From contig NZ_JACZEP010000001.1 in assembly GCF_014863355.1 (NCBI RefSeq), positions 1,364,001 through 1,428,000 of the forward strand: a stretch of 64,000 nucleotides of DNA, given 5' to 3'. Of the stretch, positions 1-51,930 are shown in pieces. The stretch comes from Aminobacter carboxidus (GTDB lineage Bacteria; Pseudomonadota; Alphaproteobacteria; Rhizobiales; Rhizobiaceae). Below the pieces are notes generated by a model that was not told the DNA's origin, did not search any database, and saw only the letters and a program-made list of their open reading frames with translations. A program made the position numbers and the translations under genes. Every line of letters begins with the position of its first letter. Positions within the stretch are counted from its first letter, which is position 1.

Positions 1-2145
<2,145 letters not shown>

Positions 2146-2157
2146 GCACTAAAGGCG

Positions 2158-6655: not shown

Positions 6656-7750
6656 ATGAAGTTTGTTCTCTCCACTATCGCTGCAGGTCTGGCTTCGTCG
6701 GTGATCAGCGCCCATGCGCAGGATCCCGCGCCGTTCAAGGCGACGCTGCTCGGCCAGGTCGTCTTGCCGACCGGACTGAAGATTGCGGGAACCGAGTTCG
6801 GCGGCATCTCCGGCCTCGACTTTGATGCGGCCAGCGGGCTGTTCTACGCCATTTCGGATGACCGCTCGGAACGTGCGCCGGCGCGGCTTTACACGCTCAA
6901 GCTCGCGATCGACGGCAAGGGCGTTCACGGCGTCGACATCGTTTCGAGCGCAGAATTGCGCAACGCCGAAGGTGCTGCCTTCGCCAAGAAGGACATCGAC
7001 CCGGAGTCGATCCGTTTCGACTCTGCGGCAAACCGCATCTTTTGGTCGAGCGAGGGTGATGCTGCTGGCCGGCCGGCGATCTATGAAGCCAAACCCGACG
7101 GCAGCCACGTCAGGAGCTTCGCCATTCCCGAGGCCTATCTGCCCAATGCCGACAAGACGCGCGGTGTGCGCGGCAACCTGTCGTTCGAAAGCCTCGACAT
7201 TTCACCCGACGGCAAGACCCTTTGGGCGGGAACCGAAAACGCGCTGGCGCAGGACGGCGACAAGGCGACGCTGGAGGCTGGCAGCCCATCGCGCGTCATT
7301 GGCTTCGACATCGCCAGCGGCACTGTCGCTGCCGAACACGTCTATGACAACGGGCCGATCTTCACCAAGGCGACCCAGGACCCGTATTACAATGACAACG
7401 GCCTCTCCGAATTCCTGCTCTTTGGCCCCGACGAGCTTCTGACGATCGAACGTGCTTTCGCGCTTGGCATCGGCAGCGAGATCAACTTCTATCTGGCCAG
7501 TTTCTCCGGTGCGACCGACGTCAAGGATGTTGCCTCGATCAAGGACGTTACGGCAAAGCCGATGTCGAAGCGCAAGGTGCTGAAGATCGGCGAGGGTGAT
7601 TTCGGGCTCGACATTGACAACATCGAGTCGGTGACGTGGGGCCCCGAAATAGACGGCCGGCGCACGTTGGTCATTGCCTCCGACAACAACTTCAACCCGG
7701 AGCAGTTCACGCAATTCGTCGTGCTGAAACTTGACGCCGCCACGAATTGA
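6656..7750 (+). CDS. secreted esterase-like activity of phytase family protein
   Basis: The 364-residue product starts at ATG 6656; the frame is open further upstream, but only this start gives a signal peptide (MKFVLSTIAAGLASSVISAHAQ, cleavage expected after AHA). The mature protein is rich in Asp and Gly and has beta-propeller-like repeats (GGISGLDFDAASGLFYAISDDR near the N-terminus; NDNGLSEFLLFGPDELLTIER further on), which matches the family called esterase-like activity of phytase. The substrate is unknown; an organophosphate or lipid ester is possible. It stands alone between the rpoC terminator and a hairpin of its own, so it is probably a single-gene transcript. Confidence 0.82.
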   Translation: MKFVLSTIAAGLASSVISAHAQDPAPFKATLLGQVVLPTGLKIAGTEFGGISGLDFDAASGLFYAISDDRSERAPARLYTLKLAIDGKGVHGVDIVSSAELRNAEGAAFAKKDIDPESIRFDSAANRIFWSSEGDAAGRPAIYEAKPDGSHVRSFAIPEAYLPNADKTRGVRGNLSFESLDISPDGKTLWAGTENALAQDGDKATLEAGSPSRVIGFDIASGTVAAEHVYDNGPIFTKATQDPYYNDNGLSEFLLFGPDELLTIERAFALGIGSEINFYLASFSGATDVKDVASIKDVTAKPMSKRKVLKIGEGDFGLDIDNIESVTWGPEIDGRRTLVIASDNNFNPEQFTQFVVLKLDAATN

Positions 7751-7799
7751 TCTGGCCGCGGCGCTGTTGGCCGCAAAATGCATGGTCCCATGTAGCAAA

Positions 7800-7830
7800 G
7801 CCGCCGGAGCGATCCGGCGGCATTTCTTTG
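7800..7830 (+). terminator. probable terminator after the phytase-like gene
   Basis: A perfect 9-base GC-rich stem (7800-7808 with 7813-7821) has a GCGA loop and is followed by ATTTCTTTG. The T run is imperfect but the position, 50 bases past the stop, fits. Confidence 0.75.
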
Positions 7831-7905
7831 CGATGCCGTGGCCTGGCGCGGGTTTGGCGGGTCTGCACCGCTTTCCGCAAGGTAAGTCTAATGTATTTGC
7901 GCCGT

Positions 7906-7934
7906 TTGACATCGTGAACTTACGAAAATAGCCT
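7906..7934 (+). promoter_or_regulatory. possible promoter of the APC permease gene
   Basis: A perfect TTGACA at 7906-7911 is followed after 17 bases by TAGCCT at 7929-7934, which is only a weak -10. The permease start codon is 38 bases further on. Confidence 0.3.
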
Positions 7935-7971
7935 TCTGCTTGAAGTGCATCAGCCTTGAGAGGAGTGCCCG

Positions 7972-9393
7972 ATGACCGACGTCCCCTCCGATGCGAAAGG
8001 ACAGGGGGTATCGGTAGAGCCGAGCCTCCATCGCGTGATGGGCCCCTGGCTGCTTTTGCTCTTCATCGTCGGTGATATTCTCGGCACCGGCATCTACGCG
8101 CTGACGGGTCAAGTGGCCAAGCAGGTCGGCGGCGTGGTCTGGCTACCGTTTCTCGTCGCCTTCATCGTCGCTGTCATCACCGCCTTCAGCTATCTCGAAC
8201 TGGTCACCAAATATCCAAAGGCCGCCGGTGCCGCCCTTTACGCTCACAAGGCGTTCGGCATCCATTTCATCACCTTCATCGTCGCTTTCGCAGTGATGTG
8301 CTCGGGCATCACCTCGGCGTCGACGGCCTCGCGCGCCTTTGCCGCCAATCTGTCGGGCGCGTTCGATCTCGGCCTCAGCGGGACCTACGGCATCACGCTC
8401 ATCGGCCTGGCGTTCATGGCGGTTGTCGCTGCAGTGAACTTCCGCGGTGTCGGCGAAAGCGTCAAAGCCAATGTCGTACTGACCTGCGTCGAGTTCACCG
8501 GCCTGATGATCATCATTGTCATCGGTCTGTGGGCTATTGGAGCAGGTGAGGGCGATGTCTCCAGGGTGATGGAGTTCCACTCGGCGCCGGACCGCAGCGC
8601 CTTCTGGTCGGTGATCGCGGCAACCACGCTTGCGTTCTTCGCCATGGTCGGCTTCGAGGATTCGGTCAACATGGCCGAGGAGTGCAAGGACCCGACGCGC
8701 ATCTTCCCGAAAGTGCTGCTGACCGGCTTGCTGATCACCGGCGTCATCTATGTGCTGGTGTCGATCTCTGCGATCACACTGGTGCCACCGGAACAGCTGG
8801 GCGAGGGCGAGACGCCGCTGCTCAAGGTGGTCCAGGCCGGCGCTCCCAACTTCCCGGTCGAGATCTTCGGTTTCATCACCATGTTCGCGGTCGCCAACAG
8901 CGCGCTCATCAACATGTTGATGGCGAGCCGGCTGGTCTATGGCATGAGCCGCGAACGCGTGTTGCCGGAAGTGCTCGGCAAGGTTCACGCCTCGCGTCGC
9001 ACGCCCTACATCGCGATCGGCTTCACCACCTTGCTCGCTTTCGCGCTGATCAGCTTCGTTGGCGAGGTTCCGGCACTGGGAGGCACAACGGCGCTGCTGC
9101 TGCTGTGCGTGTTCACCGTGGTCAACATTGCCGTGCTGGTGTTGCGCAAGGATACTGTCGGCCACGGTCACTTCCGGACGCCGACGCTGCTGCCGATCGT
9201 GGGGGCCGTGGCTTGCGCCTTCTTCGCCGGACCGTGGACCGGGCGCGATCCTGTTCAATACAAGATCGCCGGTATCCTGATCGGCATCGGGGTGCTGTTG
9301 TGGTTCGTGACCGTGCTGGTCAACCGCGCCACCGGGCAGAAGCCCGCCGAACCTGAGATGGCTGACATTGGCGGGGCAGGGCCGGTGAACTGA
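7972..9393 (+). CDS. APC-family amino acid permease
   Basis: The 473-residue product is dominated by about 12 hydrophobic segments. Near its N-terminus is the first-helix glycine motif of the amino acid-polyamine-organocation superfamily (IVGDILGTGIYALTG, about residues 32-46), where the substrate carboxylate is bound. A second family signature, the ATTLAFFAMVGFEDSVNMAEE stretch, sits near residue 225. GAGAGG-like purines lie just upstream of the ATG. It likely imports an amino acid across the inner membrane, but the specific substrate cannot be read. It is not in an obvious operon. Confidence 0.88.
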   Translation: MTDVPSDAKGQGVSVEPSLHRVMGPWLLLLFIVGDILGTGIYALTGQVAKQVGGVVWLPFLVAFIVAVITAFSYLELVTKYPKAAGAALYAHKAFGIHFITFIVAFAVMCSGITSASTASRAFAANLSGAFDLGLSGTYGITLIGLAFMAVVAAVNFRGVGESVKANVVLTCVEFTGLMIIIVIGLWAIGAGEGDVSRVMEFHSAPDRSAFWSVIAATTLAFFAMVGFEDSVNMAEECKDPTRIFPKVLLTGLLITGVIYVLVSISAITLVPPEQLGEGETPLLKVVQAGAPNFPVEIFGFITMFAVANSALINMLMASRLVYGMSRERVLPEVLGKVHASRRTPYIAIGFTTLLAFALISFVGEVPALGGTTALLLLCVFTVVNIAVLVLRKDTVGHGHFRTPTLLPIVGAVACAFFAGPWTGRDPVQYKIAGILIGIGVLLWFVTVLVNRATGQKPAEPEMADIGGAGPVN

Positions 9394-42789: not shown

Positions 42790-43587
42790 ATGGGTAAGGC
42801 AATCACCATTCGGAAGCGCCGCGACACGTATCACATCGCCAAGCGCGTTCCGGTTCGTTACGCCGAGGTCGAGCCGAAGGCGTAAGTATGGATCAGCTTG
42901 AAGACCGACTGTGCCGAGATCGCGCAACAGAAGGCGGCTCGGGTCTGGAACGATCTCATCAACGCATGGGACGCCAAGCTGGCCGAGGACGCCGAGAGGG
43001 CATTCGCAGCGGCGTATAATTTGGCTCAGGCCCGTGGCTTCCGGTGGCTCTCCGCCGAGAAGGTCGCCACCCTGCCCCGCGCCGAGCTTCTGGAACGCAT
43101 AGAAGCTGTCACCAAGCGCGAACGGCACTCCTGACCTGAAAGAGGCCGCTGCCACCCTCGGCGGGGCCGTGCAGCCCGCCATCCCAAGACACGGAATTCG
43201 AAGCGGGACATTCCATTGGTGGGGATCAGTCTGGAGGCGTTCAGGGCGTTCCCGGAAGGCTTCCCGACCTATCGGTTTAAGGACAAGATCAGCGACACCG
43301 TGAACAAGTTCCTGCGCGAGAACGGCCTTCTGGAGACCCAGCGACATACCCTTTACGGCCTACGTCATTCATTCGAGGACCGGATGTTAAAGGCCGGGAT
43401 TGATGAGCGAGTGCGCCGCGATCTCATGGGCCATGGCATTGGAGGACGGCAACGGTATGGCGACGGTGCCTCACTGGAGACCGCCAGCGAACTTCTGGCC
43501 GCAATTGCCCCATTGATTGTGCTTGTGCGGTCACGCAGTAATGGGAGCGGTGGAGAATCGCAGCGATCATGGAGCGCAGCACTTTAA
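42790..43587 (+). pseudogene. tyrosine-type integrase, broken
   Basis: The N-terminal part starts MGKAITIRKRRDTYHIAKRVP at 42790, is stopped in frame by TAA at 42883-42885, then continues in the same frame to 43134 (LKTDCAEIAQQKAARVWNDL). A second piece in another frame, 43216-43587, is the C-terminal catalytic region: YGLRHSFEDRML, LMGHG and the nucleophile tyrosine region RYGDG. The central part with the first catalytic arginine is missing. The protein is therefore dead by a nonsense codon, a frame change and a deletion. Its location beside tRNA-Ser marks a former integrated element. Confidence 0.85.
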
Positions 43588-45811: not shown

Positions 45812-46582
45812 CTATTTCGTGCTGATCCACACCGGTGCGTGGTCGCTTGCCTCGTCGCGGCCGCGTACGTCGCGATCCACACCCGCACCAGTCAGGCGCC
45901 TGGCCATCTTCTTGCTGAGCAAAAGATGGTCGAGACGCATGCCGGCGTCGCGTGGCCAGCGGTTTCGCCGATAGTCCCAGAAGCTGTAGACGGTGTCGGT
46001 GGGGAGTTTCTTGCGGATGGCGTCGGTCCAGCCCTGTTCGAGCAATTGCCGGAAGGCATCGCGGCTCGCCGGCTGGACGAGTGCATTGTCGTCGTAGGAC
46101 TTCGTGGCGTAGACATCACGAGCTTCGGGCGCGACGTTGAAGTCGCCCGCAAGGACAGCCGGAACATCAGCGGCGATCAGCGCTGCCGCATGTGTGTTGA
46201 GCCGTGCGTGCCAGTCGAGCTTGTAGTCGAACTTCGGCCCGGGCTGCGGATTGCCGTTCGGTGCATAGAGCGAGGCGATCAGCACGCCATTCACCGCCGC
46301 CTCGACATAGCGGCTCTGGCCGTCGTCGGGATCGCCGGGCAGCTCCCATCGTGTCACCATCGGCTCGGCATCGCGGGCGAGGATCGCCACGCCGTTCCAG
46401 GTCGACTGGCCGCGCCAGACCGCGCCATAGCCGGCCTGCTCGATCGCCGAGCGCGGCAGCTGCGTGTCAGCCGCCTTCAGCTCCTGCAGGCACACAACGT
46501 CGGGTTTTGCCTCCTTCAGCCACGCCAGCAGGTTTTCGAGCCGGCGGTTGACGTTATTGACGTTGAAGGTGGCGATCTTCAT
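45812..46582 (-). CDS. xth: exodeoxyribonuclease III family AP endonuclease
   Basis: 256 residues, the full endonuclease/exonuclease/phosphatase fold. Catalytic residues are visible: Asn7 (FNVNN), Glu34 (CLQELKA), the GDFNVAP motif, and the C-terminal LDHLLLS and SDHAPVW. It cuts at abasic sites and trims 3' ends. It lies 9 bases after the alpha/beta hydrolase gene and is the last gene of the ligD-ku operon, so it may process ends for joining. Confidence 0.93.
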   Translation of the reverse strand: MKIATFNVNNVNRRLENLLAWLKEAKPDVVCLQELKAADTQLPRSAIEQAGYGAVWRGQSTWNGVAILARDAEPMVTRWELPGDPDDGQSRYVEAAVNGVLIASLYAPNGNPQPGPKFDYKLDWHARLNTHAAALIAADVPAVLAGDFNVAPEARDVYATKSYDDNALVQPASRDAFRQLLEQGWTDAIRKKLPTDTVYSFWDYRRNRWPRDAGMRLDHLLLSKKMARRLTGAGVDRDVRGRDEASDHAPVWISTK

Positions 46583-46591
46583 GCGACGCTG

Positions 46592-47230
46592 TCAGGTGAG
46601 CCGGGCCGACCAGGCCGCGACCGCGTCGCCCAACGTTTTCAGGTGGGCGGCGGCGGAGAAGCCGGAAATGCTCTTGCGCGGCTTGAGATCATGATCGCCA
46701 TCTTCGAGCCACAGGACTTCAATGCGGTCCGACAGTTCGTAGTTGGGCACCTCCTCGACAGTGCCGAACTCGTCGCGCGTACCTTGCACGATCAGAGTTG
46801 GCGTCCTGAGCGCGGCAAGATGTTTGGTGCGTAGCTGTGTCGGCTTGGCTGGTGGGTGAAAGGGATAGCCGAGGCACAAAAGGCCGACGATCGTTCCTGA
46901 CCCATACAACTCGTCAGCGATCATGCTGGCGACACGCCCGCCCATCGACTTGCCGCCAATGATCAGGGGGCCTTTTGCGCCAAGCTGCGCGACGGCGGCC
47001 TTGTACTCCGGGTTCAGCGTTTCCGCCCTTGGCGGCGGCTTGCGCCCGGCTTCGCCGCGCCGCCCCGCCATGTAGCCGAATTCGAACCGCGCGACGCGAA
47101 GACCGGCCAAGGCAAGCGCGTTCGCCGCCCCCGTCATCGAGGCCGAATCCATCGGCGCGCCCGCGCCATGGGCCAAAAGCACGGTGATGTCAGCATCTTC
47201 CGGCCCATCGAAAAGGAAGTTCACCGCCAT
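46592..47230 (-). CDS. alpha/beta hydrolase, KANL3/Tex30 type
   Basis: 212 residues. The nucleophile elbow GKSMGGR places Ser95; the aspartate (VQGTRDEFG) and histidine (EDGDHDLKPRK) complete the triad, and HGAGAPMDS forms the oxyanion region. This small dienelactone-hydrolase-like family has no settled substrate. Its start codon directly follows the stop of the BRCT-TPR gene. Confidence 0.85.
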   Translation of the reverse strand: MAVNFLFDGPEDADITVLLAHGAGAPMDSASMTGAANALALAGLRVARFEFGYMAGRRGEAGRKPPPRAETLNPEYKAAVAQLGAKGPLIIGGKSMGGRVASMIADELYGSGTIVGLLCLGYPFHPPAKPTQLRTKHLAALRTPTLIVQGTRDEFGTVEEVPNYELSDRIEVLWLEDGDHDLKPRKSISGFSAAAHLKTLGDAVAAWSARLT

Positions 47231-48319
47231 CTAGCTTGCCGTCCGTTCCCTGAGATGCAGATCGACATACTGGATGCCCTTGGCCGCGGTCCTGGCCCAT
47301 TCGGACGTGCCGTCGAGTTTGAGATAGAGCGACCACCAGCGCCTGGCTTCGGCCAGCTCGCCGGCCTCATATTCGAGGTTTGCGAGGTTGAATATCGCGT
47401 CGGCATAGGATGGGTCGAGCGCCACCGCCTTCTTGAGGTGGCGCCGTGCCGTATGCACCTTGCCTTCGGCGGCAGACAAGCCGGCGAGGTTGAACCAGGC
47501 TTCGACGAATTTCGGGTCGAGCTTGATCGCCCTGAGATAGGTCTGCATCGCCTCCTGGCTGTGGCCGGCGGCGCGCAGGCTGTTCGCCCGGTTGAATGCG
47601 GCAACGCTGTCGTTCGGGTCGGCCGCCAGGCAGCGCGCGTAAAGCGTTGCCGCCTCGGTGAAGCGGCCGCCCTCCTCCGCCTCCTCTGCGCGGCCGAACA
47701 TATCCTCCAACTCGGCATCGCTGGTTCGTTCGAGCGGCAACAGCCGCTGGCCGTCAAGCTCGGCGAAATCAGCGCCAAGGCGGGCGTAGATCGCATCCTT
47801 GCCGTCGGCATGAAGCGACATCGCGCTCAGCGACGCCACCGCGCCCGATCGGCGAACCGACCTGGCAATGGCGCTCCAGGTCGCGCCGCCGGCCAAAAGG
47901 CCGGCATACTTCCTGGCCAGGATCAGGTCGCGGAACGCATAAGGCTCGCTATCGCTTTCGAAGGCGTCGAACAGCGACAGGAAGTCGAAGGCCATGGGAG
48001 CAATACGTGACTGCTCGACCAGCGACTGCCGGGTCATTTCCGCGCCATCGACCCGGTCCAGCAGGCCGAGCGCTCGGAGAAACCCGTTCTCGCTGAGCAC
48101 CGGACGGCCCGAGGCAAGCACCACGTTGAGCCGCGCTTCCAGTTGCGCCTCGTCGAGCTTGGAGAACAACATCCGCCCGACCACGACGTCAGTCGTTCGC
48201 CGCGTCACGCCATGCTGCAGTTCGCCGCCCTGGCGCGCGACCTCGCGCACGGCGAGCCGCCTGGGAAACGCGGCAAGCGCTCCGACCAGGCCGAATATCC
48301 TGCCCGAAAGTGCAGTCAC
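47231..48319 (-). CDS. BRCT - MerR-like HTH - TPR protein linked to Ku
   Basis: 362 residues. Residues 5-85 resemble a BRCT domain (SGRIFGLVGALAAFPRR, then GGELQHGVTRRTTDVVVG, then SGRPVLSENGFLRAL). Residues 112-160 resemble a MerR-type helix-turn-helix (PYAFRDLILARKYAGLLAGG). Residues 201-340 hold four TPR units (such as VEAWFNLAGLSAAEGKVHTA). The gene overlaps the ku stop by 4 bases (ATGA), so it is translated with Ku. BRCT domains bind phosphopeptides or DNA ends, so a scaffold role in end joining is plausible. Domain assignments are by eye; BRCT and TPR are more certain than the HTH. Confidence 0.8.
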   Translation of the reverse strand: MTALSGRIFGLVGALAAFPRRLAVREVARQGGELQHGVTRRTTDVVVGRMLFSKLDEAQLEARLNVVLASGRPVLSENGFLRALGLLDRVDGAEMTRQSLVEQSRIAPMAFDFLSLFDAFESDSEPYAFRDLILARKYAGLLAGGATWSAIARSVRRSGAVASLSAMSLHADGKDAIYARLGADFAELDGQRLLPLERTSDAELEDMFGRAEEAEEGGRFTEAATLYARCLAADPNDSVAAFNRANSLRAAGHSQEAMQTYLRAIKLDPKFVEAWFNLAGLSAAEGKVHTARRHLKKAVALDPSYADAIFNLANLEYEAGELAEARRWWSLYLKLDGTSEWARTAAKGIQYVDLHLRERTAS

Positions 48320-49188
48320 TTCTTGCCTTTCGTCGCCTTGCCACCGCCAACTGCCGCCACCTTGGCCGCTGGCTTCTCGGCCGGTTCGGCCTTGGTTTTG
48401 CTCTTGGCCGGCGGTTTGGCCTGGCCGAGGCTGGCCTTCAGCGCATCCATCAGGTTGATCACGTTGCCGCGCTCGGGAGCGGCAGCGATGATCGGCTTGT
48501 GGCCCTTCAGCTTCTCCTTGATCATCTTCATCAAGGCGATCTCGTAGCGATCCTCGTAGTTCTTCGGATCAAACGTCGTCAGCTTCTGCTTGATCAGCGC
48601 TTCGGCAAGTTCAAGCATTTCGGGATCGGGATTGCCGGCAGGGATATTGCCGAAATATTCCGATGTTCCGCGCACTTCGCTCGGATTGCGCAAGGTACAC
48701 ACGAACATGCCGTTCTCGCGCGAGCCAATGGTCACGACGCGTTCGCGGCTTGACAGCACGAGGCGGGCAATGGCGAGCTTACCCGACTTGCGCAGCGCCT
48801 CGCGCAGCACGGCGAAGGTTTCCTCGGCCATTGCGCCATCGGGCGCCAGATAATAGGGCGCATCCTGGTAGATCACATCGACGGAATCTTCGTCGACGAA
48901 GGCCTCGATGTTCATCGTGTGGTTGGATTCGATCTTGACGCTGTCGATGTCGGCTTCGTCGATGACGACATATCTTTTGTCTTCGTACTCGTAGCCTTTG
49001 ACGAGGTCGGAGCGCTCGACAAGGCCGAGTTCCGGATCGACTGGTTTCATGTTGATCCGGTTATGCGTGTCCTTGTGCAGCTGATTGAAGCTGATGCGCT
49101 CGCTCGTGCTGGTCGCCGGGTACAGACGTACCGGGCAGCTGACCAGGCTGAGTTTCAGATACCCCTTCCAACTTGCCCTTGGTGCCAT
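48316..49188 (-). CDS. ku: non-homologous end joining protein Ku
   Basis: 290 residues beginning MAPRASWKGYLKLSLVSCPVRLYPA, the hallmark of bacterial Ku. The central ring-forming region (ISFNQLHKDTHNRI; YYLAPDGAMAEETFAVLREA) is complete, and the C-terminal tail is Lys/Ala rich (AKPPAKSKTKAEP), which in other bacteria binds DNA and recruits LigD. It lies 40 bases after ligD and overlaps the next gene by 4. Confidence 0.95.
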   Translation of the reverse strand: MAPRASWKGYLKLSLVSCPVRLYPATSTSERISFNQLHKDTHNRINMKPVDPELGLVERSDLVKGYEYEDKRYVVIDEADIDSVKIESNHTMNIEAFVDEDSVDVIYQDAPYYLAPDGAMAEETFAVLREALRKSGKLAIARLVLSSRERVVTIGSRENGMFVCTLRNPSEVRGTSEYFGNIPAGNPDPEMLELAEALIKQKLTTFDPKNYEDRYEIALMKMIKEKLKGHKPIIAAAPERGNVINLMDALKASLGQAKPPAKSKTKAEPAEKPAAKVAAVGGGKATKGKK

Positions 49189-49211: not shown

Positions 49212-49245
49212 TCAAGACATACTCTTGGTCAAGACTTACTCTTGG
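49212..49245 (-). repeat. 17-base tandem duplication across the ligD stop
   Basis: Two adjacent 17-base units (49212-49228 and 49229-49245) differ at one base. The first base triplet of the second unit is the ligD stop codon. The duplication therefore spans the end of ligD and the ligD-ku spacer. Confidence 0.85.
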
Positions 49246-51688
49246 CGATGACCTCGGCCGGCAAGTCCTTGGCATGATCTGATATCTCAGCCCAAGGATC
49301 GCCCGACCTGGCCACAAGTCCGGGAAGCGAAGAATAGTTCAAATCGGCGGGAGCGTCGATGGACTCGAGATCCGGCCAACTAAGCGGGGTCGACGCCGGC
49401 ATGTTGGTGCGGGCGCGAAGACTGTAAGGGGCGGCCGCAGTGGCGCTGCGCGCGTTGCGGTGGAAGTCGATGAAGATGCGCTTCTTGCGGTTGTCCTTGC
49501 CCATCACAGTCGTGAATGTGTCGGGCGCGGTCCTGGCGATCCGCGACGAGATTTCGCTGCTTGCCTGATGGAACTGCTTCCAGCCGAGCTTTCCGGTCGT
49601 TGGCACGACGACGTGGATGCCGCTGCCGCCCGAGGTCTTTACGAAAGGCACGAGTCCCATCTTCGTTAGCTCGTCGCGGACATGCACGGCCGCCTCGACG
49701 ACCTCGCGCCAAGCGATGCCCTCGCCTGGATCGAGGTCGAAGACGACACGGTCGGGCTTGTCCAGACGCTTGCGTTGCGCGCCCCAGACGTGGAACTCGA
49801 CGACGCCGAACTGCGCCAGCGCGAGATAGCCCTTGGCGTCCTCGACCGAAATGTAGGTCTTGCTCTCGTCCTCGGAGTTCTTGGTCTCGAAGGACGCGAT
49901 CGTCGCCGGCATTCCGGTAAAGGCGTGACGTTGGAAGAAGCAATCCTTGTGCTGGCCGGTCGGACACCTGAACAGCGACACCGGCCGCCCCATGATGTGC
50001 GGCAGCATGAAATCGCCGACGGCCGCGTAATAGACGGCGATGTCGAGCTTGGTTGGACCGGACTTGCCGAGCATCCGGCGTTCCGGGTTGGTGATCGTGA
50101 CGGCGGCAAGATCGGCGTCGTTGATCAGCCTTTTGCGAGGCGCCTGGGGAGTTTCAGACAGCTCCGCCTCGCGTAGCCCCTTGAACACCGCGTGACGCAA
50201 CGCATTGTCGGTGGTGCGATTGGCAAAGTGGATATGGGCTTTGAGCACGGGTCGCACTGAGATGATCTCCTTCGGCGCGCCGTCGAGCTTCACCGCACCC
50301 TCGCGCAGGCTTTCCAGCCGGTGCAGCAAAGACTGCAACGTCTCGGCGTCGAAGCCGGTTCCAACCTTGCCGCGATACTGCAACTCGCCATCGACCCATT
50401 CGCCGAGCGCTAGGGCGGCCAGCCCCTCGGCAGCTTGCGAAGTTGTGTAGCCGGCGATGTAGAAATCGCCCTTCTTCTGCGCCTTGGTCTTGGACCAGCT
50501 GTGCGAACGCCCGGAGTTGTAGTGCGCCGTGGCCCGTTTCGACACCACGCCCTCGAGCCCCATCTCGGTCGCCTGTTCGTACAGCGCCTGCCCGTCGCCC
50601 TCGACGTGCCCACTGAGCTGAAGCGCCGACTGGGCGTGGACATGGCCGGCAAGCAGCGTCTCCAGCAGGCCCTTGCGCTTCGCAAGCGCCGTACCCGTCA
50701 GGTCCCAGCCGTTGAGATGGACAAGGTCGAAGGCATAAAACACCAGAAGCTCGTCGTGTCTGCTGGCCAGCGCGTCCTGCAGTGCGGCGAACCGGCTGAT
50801 GCCCTTGTCGTCGAGCACGACGATCTCGCCGTCGATGACGGCGTCGCTGCATGGCAGGTCGCGAAAGGCCGAAGCCAGCTTGCCATAGCGTTTTGTCCAG
50901 TCGATGCCGCTGCGGGTGATCAACTTCGCAGTGCCGCCCTCGAGATGCACCATGGTGCGGTAGCCGTCGAACTTGATCTCGTGCAGCCATCCGTCGCCCG
51001 ACGGCGGCTTCGGCGCAGGGCTCGCCAACTGCGGTTCGATCCGTGCCGGCATCGGCGCCTTCACCGCGCCTGAAATCTTGCCGGGCTTGAGGTCACCGGG
51101 TTTCGATGGCGAGGTCTTCGGCGGCCCGGCCAGTTCCTCGATGCGCCGCCCCGACTTCACGCTTTCGGGCCGGGTTTCGAGAATGTCCGTCGTCTCGTCG
51201 ACCGCCGGATCGTGTTCCTTGAACAGCAGCCAGTTGCGCTTGTCTTCGCCTGACTTCGGCTTCAGCCGCGCCAGCATCCAGCCGCCTTTGAGCTTTTCGC
51301 CCCACAGCCGGAACTTGAACGCGCCTTTCTCAAGCGACGTCCGTGCATCCTCCATCGGTGCCCACACGCCCGCGTCCCAGACGATCATCGGCCCGCCGCC
51401 ATACTCGCCTTCCGGGATCAGTCCTTCGAAGTCGATGTAGTCGAGCGGGTGGTCCTCGGTCTCCACCGCAAGGCGCTTGTCGGCCGGATTGAGCGAGGGA
51501 CCACGCGGCACGGCCCAGCTCTTGAGCACGCCGTCGAGTTCGAGGCGAAGATCGTAGTGGTCGGCGGTGGCATGATGCTTGTGCACGACAAAGCGGTTGC
51601 CCTCGCTCGCCTGCTCGACGCCGCGCGGCTCGCGCGTCTTCGAGAAATCGCGCTTTTGCCGGTAGGTGCGAAGCTTTTCCGCTGCCAT
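49229..51688 (-). CDS. ligD: multifunctional ATP-dependent DNA ligase LigD
   Basis: 819 residues in the order phosphoesterase, ligase, polymerase. The phosphoesterase has HKHHATADHYDLRLELDG (about 37-53) and IPEGEYGGG. The ligase nucleophile is Lys239 in EIKFDGYR. The polymerase/primase domain (about 530-810) has VFDLDPGEG with the two metal aspartates and the SGGSGIHV motif. It seals double-strand breaks brought together by Ku. It begins 5 bases after a small gene and is followed by ku. Confidence 0.96.
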   Translation of the reverse strand: MAAEKLRTYRQKRDFSKTREPRGVEQASEGNRFVVHKHHATADHYDLRLELDGVLKSWAVPRGPSLNPADKRLAVETEDHPLDYIDFEGLIPEGEYGGGPMIVWDAGVWAPMEDARTSLEKGAFKFRLWGEKLKGGWMLARLKPKSGEDKRNWLLFKEHDPAVDETTDILETRPESVKSGRRIEELAGPPKTSPSKPGDLKPGKISGAVKAPMPARIEPQLASPAPKPPSGDGWLHEIKFDGYRTMVHLEGGTAKLITRSGIDWTKRYGKLASAFRDLPCSDAVIDGEIVVLDDKGISRFAALQDALASRHDELLVFYAFDLVHLNGWDLTGTALAKRKGLLETLLAGHVHAQSALQLSGHVEGDGQALYEQATEMGLEGVVSKRATAHYNSGRSHSWSKTKAQKKGDFYIAGYTTSQAAEGLAALALGEWVDGELQYRGKVGTGFDAETLQSLLHRLESLREGAVKLDGAPKEIISVRPVLKAHIHFANRTTDNALRHAVFKGLREAELSETPQAPRKRLINDADLAAVTITNPERRMLGKSGPTKLDIAVYYAAVGDFMLPHIMGRPVSLFRCPTGQHKDCFFQRHAFTGMPATIASFETKNSEDESKTYISVEDAKGYLALAQFGVVEFHVWGAQRKRLDKPDRVVFDLDPGEGIAWREVVEAAVHVRDELTKMGLVPFVKTSGGSGIHVVVPTTGKLGWKQFHQASSEISSRIARTAPDTFTTVMGKDNRKKRIFIDFHRNARSATAAAPYSLRARTNMPASTPLSWPDLESIDAPADLNYSSLPGLVARSGDPWAEISDHAKDLPAEVIAKSKS

Positions 51689-51693
51689 CCGGC

Positions 51694-51930
51694 CTAGCGC
51701 GCCGCGTCTTCCGGGGCGGGTTCCAGTTCCAGCTCCCTGGGGGTGGCACCCGCCATCAGCCGGCCGAGCAAGGCGTCGTTGACGTCATAATACTGGCCCG
51801 AAACCAGCACCCGCGAAACGGTCTGACCATCACCGCGGAACAGTCTGGAACTGACGAATACCTTGTGGCGGCCGAGCGCGTCGGAGACGGCCCTGCGCTT
51901 CCTGATCTGGCTGGCAACCGGTGTACGCAT
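51694..51930 (-). CDS. small protein preceding LigD, unknown function
   Basis: 78 residues starting MRTPVASQIRKRRAVSDALGRHK, Arg rich in the first half and acidic at the end (ELELEPAPEDAAR). It ends 5 bases before ligD, so it is likely the first gene of the end-joining operon. I do not recognise a family. The codon pattern supports coding. Confidence 0.6.
   Translation of the reverse strand: MRTPVASQIRKRRAVSDALGRHKVFVSSRLFRGDGQTVSRVLVSGQYYDVNDALLGRLMAGATPRELELEPAPEDAAR

Follow-up and report, generated by a model that had tools for sequence, protein, structure and literature searches.

A BRCT-HTH-TPR protein encoded directly after ku, a probable third partner of Ku and LigD in Alphaproteobacteria

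In the genome of Aminobacter carboxidus (6.29 Mb in 31 contigs), of which a stretch of 64,000 nucleotides, hereafter the window, was analyzed, the gene downstream of ku specifies a protein of 362 aa with a predicted N-terminal BRCT domain, a probable MerR-like helix-turn-helix (HTH) and four tetratricopeptide repeats (TPRs). The gene is found beside ku in each relative examined, which makes its product a probable third partner in the joining of broken DNA, one that has been overlooked. Its link to non-homologous end joining (NHEJ) is well supported, and its function in that pathway is putative, most likely that of an accessory scaffold. As described in part of PMC10932983, bacterial NHEJ consists of break recognition by Ku, and of processing and joining by LigD; the gene described here is encoded together with both, and adds to them a third protein, built of BRCT, HTH and TPR parts. 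If true, this would give the two-protein machine a third partner, and could help to explain the several Ku sets of some rhizobia.

The window carries, in this order on the minus strand, ligD, ku, the BRCT-HTH-TPR gene, an alpha/beta hydrolase gene and an exonuclease III-like gene (Table 1). The nearest named relatives of the locus are found in six Aminobacter records, where the counterparts of the BRCT-HTH-TPR protein are 79–93% identical. A preliminary description, made from the window sequence, had the gene overlap ku by ATGA, and the overlap is indeed present, four bases long and with the start codon inside the stop codon of ku, but its sequence is GTGA; the ATGA form occurs in three relatives (L030, L031 and L033). 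Across the 21 loci L021–L041, the 4-nt overlap is kept in 14, the start lies 6–36 nt past the ku stop in six, and in L041 it lies about 103 nt past it. Judged by sequence, the gene would be co-translated with ku and its product would act in end joining. The two genes that follow are conserved neighbors, the hydrolase gene in 18 and the exonuclease III-like gene in 16 of the same 21 loci; both are also present in S. meliloti 1021, and the latter is annotated xth in S. meliloti ml59. Their position after the BRCT-HTH-TPR gene suggests an end-cleaning activity linked to NHEJ.

Table 1. Features of the ligD-ku locus (positions are those of the window)
Feature	Position	Strand	Basis or remark
Exonuclease III-like gene	45812..46582	-	PF03372, 8e-32
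Alpha/beta hydrolase gene	46592..47230	-	PF20408, 1.2e-68 (Abhydrolase_11); ATG directly after the stop of the BRCT-HTH-TPR gene
BRCT-HTH-TPR protein gene	47231..48319	-	362 aa, GTG start at 48319-48317; full-length relatives exist
Four TPRs and C-terminal capping helix, residues 201-361	47237..47719	-	Pfam TPR matches, AF2 helices
Conserved segment of unknown fold, residues 160-197	47729..47842	-	Gly190-Gln191 nearly invariant
Probable MerR-like HTH, about residues 95-157	47849..48037	-	hhalign; MerR_1 in 2/25
Predicted N-terminal BRCT domain, residues 1-90	48050..48319	-	PDB profile matches to LigA/RFC1 BRCT; hhalign
Overlap of ku stop and BRCT-HTH-TPR gene start, GTGA, 4 bases	48316..48319	-	Window sequence
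ku	48316..49188	-	PF02735, 5.5e-44; stop TGA at 48318-48316
ligD (phosphoesterase-ligase-polymerase)	49229..51688	-	PF13298, PF01068, PF04679, PF21686

Relatives of the protein were searched for in overlapping draws from the order (297 genomes), the phylum (398) and the class (385), as well as in GTDB species contigs and plasmids. This gave 37 placed members: the window, six Aminobacter (GTDB species contigs), S. meliloti 1021, and a further 15, two and 12 from the order, phylum and class draws, respectively. Those outside Aminobacter and S. meliloti 1021 span 14 family codes of Alphaproteobacteria. The preliminary description had envisaged a family located mostly away from ku and ligD as the case against its proposal, and the opposite was found, since the gene directly follows ku on the same strand in all 37 members, so that a TPR protein lying near ku by coincidence can be ruled out. 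A ligD gene was present in the fetched stretch for 36 of the 37 (partial in L040, L086, L092, L093 and L095), the exception being L088. Three gene arrangements were seen: ligD-ku-gene, ku-gene-ligD (L041, L089 and L090), and a divergent ligD accompanied by ku-gene (L092 and L093). None of the 37 placed members is a full-length protein encoded away from ku, and no full-length member from outside Alphaproteobacteria was found among the 398 genomes of the phylum draw; rarer or more distant forms of the family may exist outside the survey.

Among plasmids, 87 records matched, and two of these were opened. In S. meliloti 1021 the gene lies on pSymB (L083), next to ku and ligD, and in strain ml59 it is annotated 'tetratricopeptide repeat protein' and directly follows a gene annotated 'Ku protein'. 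With the L084 protein as the query, the same 87 Sinorhizobium/Ensifer/Pararhizobium records were retrieved, and with that of L041 no plasmid matched. None of the 39 pattern matches in a scan of viral_contigs encodes a relative, and the phage records searched gave no match to the family.

Matches confined to the BRCT part were omitted from the family, and involved 16 of 26 genomes in the phylum draw, 3 of 16 in the class draw and 2 of 18 in the order draw. Of the 16 in the phylum draw, 15 lie in open frames of 669–861 aa, and their length and position led us to read them as LigA; L101 and L102 were opened out of these 16 loci. L096–L098 and L102 show a C-terminal BRCT in frames of 283–335 aa, which we take to be polymerase III epsilon-like proteins. 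L042 (G108), a BRCT-only match with no ku nearby, was dropped. A wider family profile (A7) matched 55 of 275 genomes; 11 of these hold members, all already known, and in the other 44 the matches do not extend past profile position 105. A further search returned members in 3 of 10 genomes, again all already known.

Three loci are unusual. In L095, a relative with BRCT and TPRs and no HTH match (1484-2146, plus strand) comes after a short ku match. Since this ku match is only 173 aa long and the ku frame overlaps the BRCT-TPR gene, the locus may carry a frame error. L086 has a single frame of 714 aa (6764-8908, minus strand) in which LigD phosphoesterase and ligase domains are followed by Ku, which may be a true gene fusion of LigD and Ku or may result from misassembly. 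In L088, Ku lies within a 642-aa open frame (7094-9022, minus strand), the approximately 350 residues before the Ku domain have no Pfam match, and no ligD is present in the stretch.

No Pfam or NCBIfam match spans the whole BRCT-HTH-TPR architecture, and PADLOC gave no match for the window and one weak Cas11e match among 22 family members. Comparison with seven relatives shows purifying selection on each of the three domains (dN/dS 0.07–0.28 by domain), with values of 0.11–0.24 for the whole protein as against 0.01–0.07 for Ku. A full-length AF2 model, built on seven sequences (that of the window and those of six Aminobacter relatives), is reliable in the TPRs only.

Taken by itself, the window sequence gave no Pfam BRCT match with the full-length protein or a 198-aa query, and with a 90-aa query matched Pfam BRCT (PF00533) at E=0.22, below the cut-off; NCBIfam matches, likewise below cut-off, were to two models, polymerase III epsilon (0.0043) and LigA (0.0086), in their BRCT parts. 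Family profiles were more informative. A 22-member profile searched against the PDB matched the BRCT domains of LigA (NAD-dependent DNA ligase; 8.8e-5) and RFC1 (2.1e-4), and with 26 members the LigA and RFC1 matches ranged from 2.5e-7 to 3.4e-6, led by LigA 9vse (2.5e-7), RFC1 2ebu (1.2e-6) and LigA 2owo (1.6e-6). The 2owo match covers nearly the whole BRCT domain, and XRCC1 appears lower in the same list; centrin and other non-BRCT chains were matched only at E values of at least 0.1 with the 26-member profile and at least 0.03 with the 22-member profile. When the family was aligned by hhalign to 21 LigA BRCT domains, located with Pfam's own model, the probability was 97% and the score 57.7 over 75 columns at 27% identity (2 of 23 BRCT loci, being partial matches, were omitted from the profile), compared with a best score of 17.6 among 200 column-shuffled controls. 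These controls and the PDB matches rule out a chance resemblance. PF00533 itself is matched at E<=1 by 13 of 26 members (best 3.9e-5), and the BRCT of L095 lies above the Pfam cut-off (21.5 vs 21.3 bits). Residues 1 to about 90 are accordingly predicted to be a BRCT domain of the LigA/RFC1 type, in line with the preliminary description, to which the first 85 residues had looked like a BRCT domain. The AlphaFold check that it had proposed lent no support to this fold and was too poor to refute it: a model of residues 1–94, from seven close sequences, was all-helical and of low confidence (mean pLDDT 62), and in the full-length model the N-terminus was mostly helical, with block means of 26–53 over residues 1–90. 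As only seven close sequences went into them, the models of the N-terminus are counted as uninformative.

By profile, the LigA BRCT is the closest domain, and residues common to both are Gly13, Thr42, Val46, Gly48 and Glu77. In contrast to LigA, the family BRCT is N-terminal, is not attached to a ligase, is more basic, and has Ile or Val in place of the pocket Thr. BRCT domains that bind phosphate have a Ser or Thr before the Gly of the first loop, along with basic partners, a pattern that the family does not show: at position 12, Ile (16/37) or Val (15/37) is found instead of the Thr present in all 21 LigA BRCTs, Gly13 is kept in 34/37, Arg20 in 21/37, and position 54 is Lys in 17/37 and Arg in 6/37. 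Because the Thr is replaced in 31 of 37 members, and Arg20 occurs in just 21, a canonical site for a 5'-phosphate or phosphopeptide is doubtful, and a classical phosphate pocket is unlikely to be present. The Trp of the last helix of the LigA BRCT is Phe or Leu in 36 of 37 members. Net charge over the whole domain has a median of +8, compared with 0 for LigA BRCTs, the contrast being small when only the first 60 residues are counted (+6 vs +4). In RFC1, a Thr and an Arg have roles in the phosphate groove; these are not kept as a pair in the family, which also lacks an AAA+ part. According to part of PMC9293009, the RFC1 BRCT binds DNA with a preference for a 5' phosphate, and grips the phosphate backbone through charged and polar residues. 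By analogy, a basic, DNA-contacting face on the family BRCT is plausible.

Residues 95 to 157, approximately, probably form a MerR-like HTH, which is less certain than either of the other two domains. Alignment by hhalign of the family HTH with ten MerR HTHs (L095 and three of 13 MerR loci, the latter partial matches, being omitted) scored 27.1, above the best of 200 shuffles (16.4), at a probability of just 54%. MerR_1 (PF13411) was matched by 2 of 25 members (best E 0.0011), and a PDB search with the HTH profile reached the MerR-family protein TnrA only at E=0.58, behind better-scoring unrelated chains. The HTH of the preliminary description thus stands above the shuffled controls, but its support is weaker than that for the BRCT domain. 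MerR regulators have a dimerization coiled coil and an effector domain after the HTH, where the family protein has its TPRs.

A MerR-like HTH encoded so close to ligD and ku raises the alternative of a local transcription regulator, whose HTH would bind the promoter of the operon and whose TPRs or BRCT would sense a damage signal. Regulators with TPRs are common, and the gene is closely linked to those it would control. On the other hand, it is co-directional with ku, which it overlaps or closely follows, and BRCT is, to our knowledge, not a usual sensor domain. The alternative further depends on the least certain domain, and is weakened by L095, which shows no HTH match and retains BRCT, TPRs and a position directly behind ku, with the caution that this locus may carry a frame error. 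We regard a regulator as rather unlikely.

Between the HTH and the TPRs lies a conserved segment, absent from the preliminary description, in which Gly190 is found in 34 and Gln191 in 36 of 37 rows. The four TPRs noticed from the window sequence are clear both by Pfam (TPR_17, 3.1e-20; TPR_2, 1.1e-19) and in the AF2 model, which has four helix pairs and block pLDDT values of 80–96 over residues 201–360; the repeats span residues 201–335 and are followed by a capping helix. Asn243, Asn277 and Asn311 occur once per repeat, exactly 34 residues apart, and are present in 36, 36 and 34 of 37 rows. In the TPRs of O-GlcNAc transferase, a ladder of Asn residues holds peptide backbones.

In the order draw, 121 of 297 genomes were Ku-positive, and these included all 16 that bear the gene. 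The remaining 105 of the 121 Ku-positive genomes are without it, and the gene is therefore not needed for NHEJ in general. Each of the 16 has a single copy, even where there are several Ku genes, and the further Ku loci that were opened (L043 of the window genome, and L150–L155) are all without a BRCT-HTH-TPR gene. L043 is the second NHEJ cluster of the window genome (5335-9591, contig C27), and has the order ku, ligD, ku; its Ku proteins belong to two other clades of the Ku tree. This was a quick tree of 88 proteins, 37 linked to the gene and 51 unlinked, with the unlinked rows all from the order. One clade (SH-aLRT 99) holds 31 of the 37 linked Ku proteins, including that of the window, and the other six lie elsewhere; the linked or unlinked label changes four times on the tree, compared with 28.4–28.5 times in shuffles. 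The gene has been inherited mostly with one Ku clade.

The reading that we favor, with reasonable though far from complete confidence, is a dedicated accessory factor of one alphaproteobacterial NHEJ lineage, produced along with a Ku and a LigD of its own. Its basic BRCT, perhaps aided by the HTH, would bind DNA at or next to a Ku-loaded end, and the TPR superhelix, with its nearly invariant Asn ladder, would hold an extended peptide, for example the Lys/Pro-rich Ku tail or some segment of LigD. In this way the protein would keep Ku and LigD, and perhaps also the co-encoded exonuclease III, assembled at the break, a role like that of XRCC1 in the repair of single-strand breaks in eukaryotes. 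Ku tails are Lys/Pro/Ala-rich in the gene-linked lineage, and so are many unlinked tails (14 of each compared); as the two look alike, the tail gives no special support to a scaffold. More tentatively, the protein could possibly be a third core NHEJ protein in Alphaproteobacteria, a scaffold at Ku-bound ends that holds LigD and end-cleaning enzymes. In that case no bacterial BRCT devoted to the joining of double-strand breaks would have been known before it, and the BRCT scaffolds of eukaryotic end joining would have an independent counterpart in bacteria.

The same parts could instead form a repair scaffold centered on the co-encoded exonuclease III, acting in base excision or end cleaning, and traveling with NHEJ because the substrates overlap. 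The frequency of the exonuclease III-like gene at loci L021–L041 fits this view, as does the scaffold XRCC1, which binds DNA via its central BRCT (PMC6334254, in part). In the 12 loci outside the order (L084–L095), however, a blastp search with the window exonuclease at 1e-5 found no such neighbor (the stretches of L087, L092 and L095 being short), whereas ku is present in 12/12, and we consider a scaffold of this kind improbable. A further explanation, of low probability, is that the gene is carried along in a conserved block and serves some housekeeping purpose that has nothing to do with end joining: the block with hydrolase and exonuclease is conserved in much of the order and the NHEJ function is read from sequence, but the link to ku holds in all 37 loci though other neighbors change, and is kept through the three gene arrangements and with more than one Ku lineage.

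The BRCT scaffolds of eukaryotes (ligase IV, Pol lambda/mu and XRCC1) share with the favored reading the scaffold idea and a BRCT in a protein that serves a ligase/Ku or ligase pathway; they have nothing beyond the BRCT in common with the family protein, which consists of a single BRCT, a MerR-like HTH and TPRs. Another ligD-linked accessory gene, for a noncanonical PolX beside LigD in Alphaproteobacteria, is described in part of PMC9226535; PolX is an exonuclease of another family, and is distinct from the BRCT-HTH-TPR protein. Neither 'BRCT' nor 'tetratricopeptide' occurs in the main text of a 2020 survey of bacterial NHEJ (PMC7719229) or of a 2025 history of Ku, and the open-access matches listed, a scope that does not include two papers on NHEJ in S. 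meliloti (Kobayashi 2008; Dupuy 2019), contained no description of the protein in their titles, abstract openings or passages. As the literature searched holds no description of it, the protein is rated as a new component of a known system.

Some minor features of the window lie outside the five genes. The general stress-response promoter pattern, in the form we assume for it, occurs at six sites in the window vs 5.55 expected, none directly upstream of ligD. Directly upstream of ligD is an ORF of 78 aa (51694-51930, minus strand), without a Pfam match, for which tblastn found matches upstream of ligD in 14 of 82 loci, with identities of 74–99% in Aminobacter and 43–49% in other loci; it is possibly another small member of the operon. 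An ORF at 43216-43587 on the plus strand resembles by eye what we take to be the C-terminal end of a phage-type integrase, and the gene block may border an integration site.
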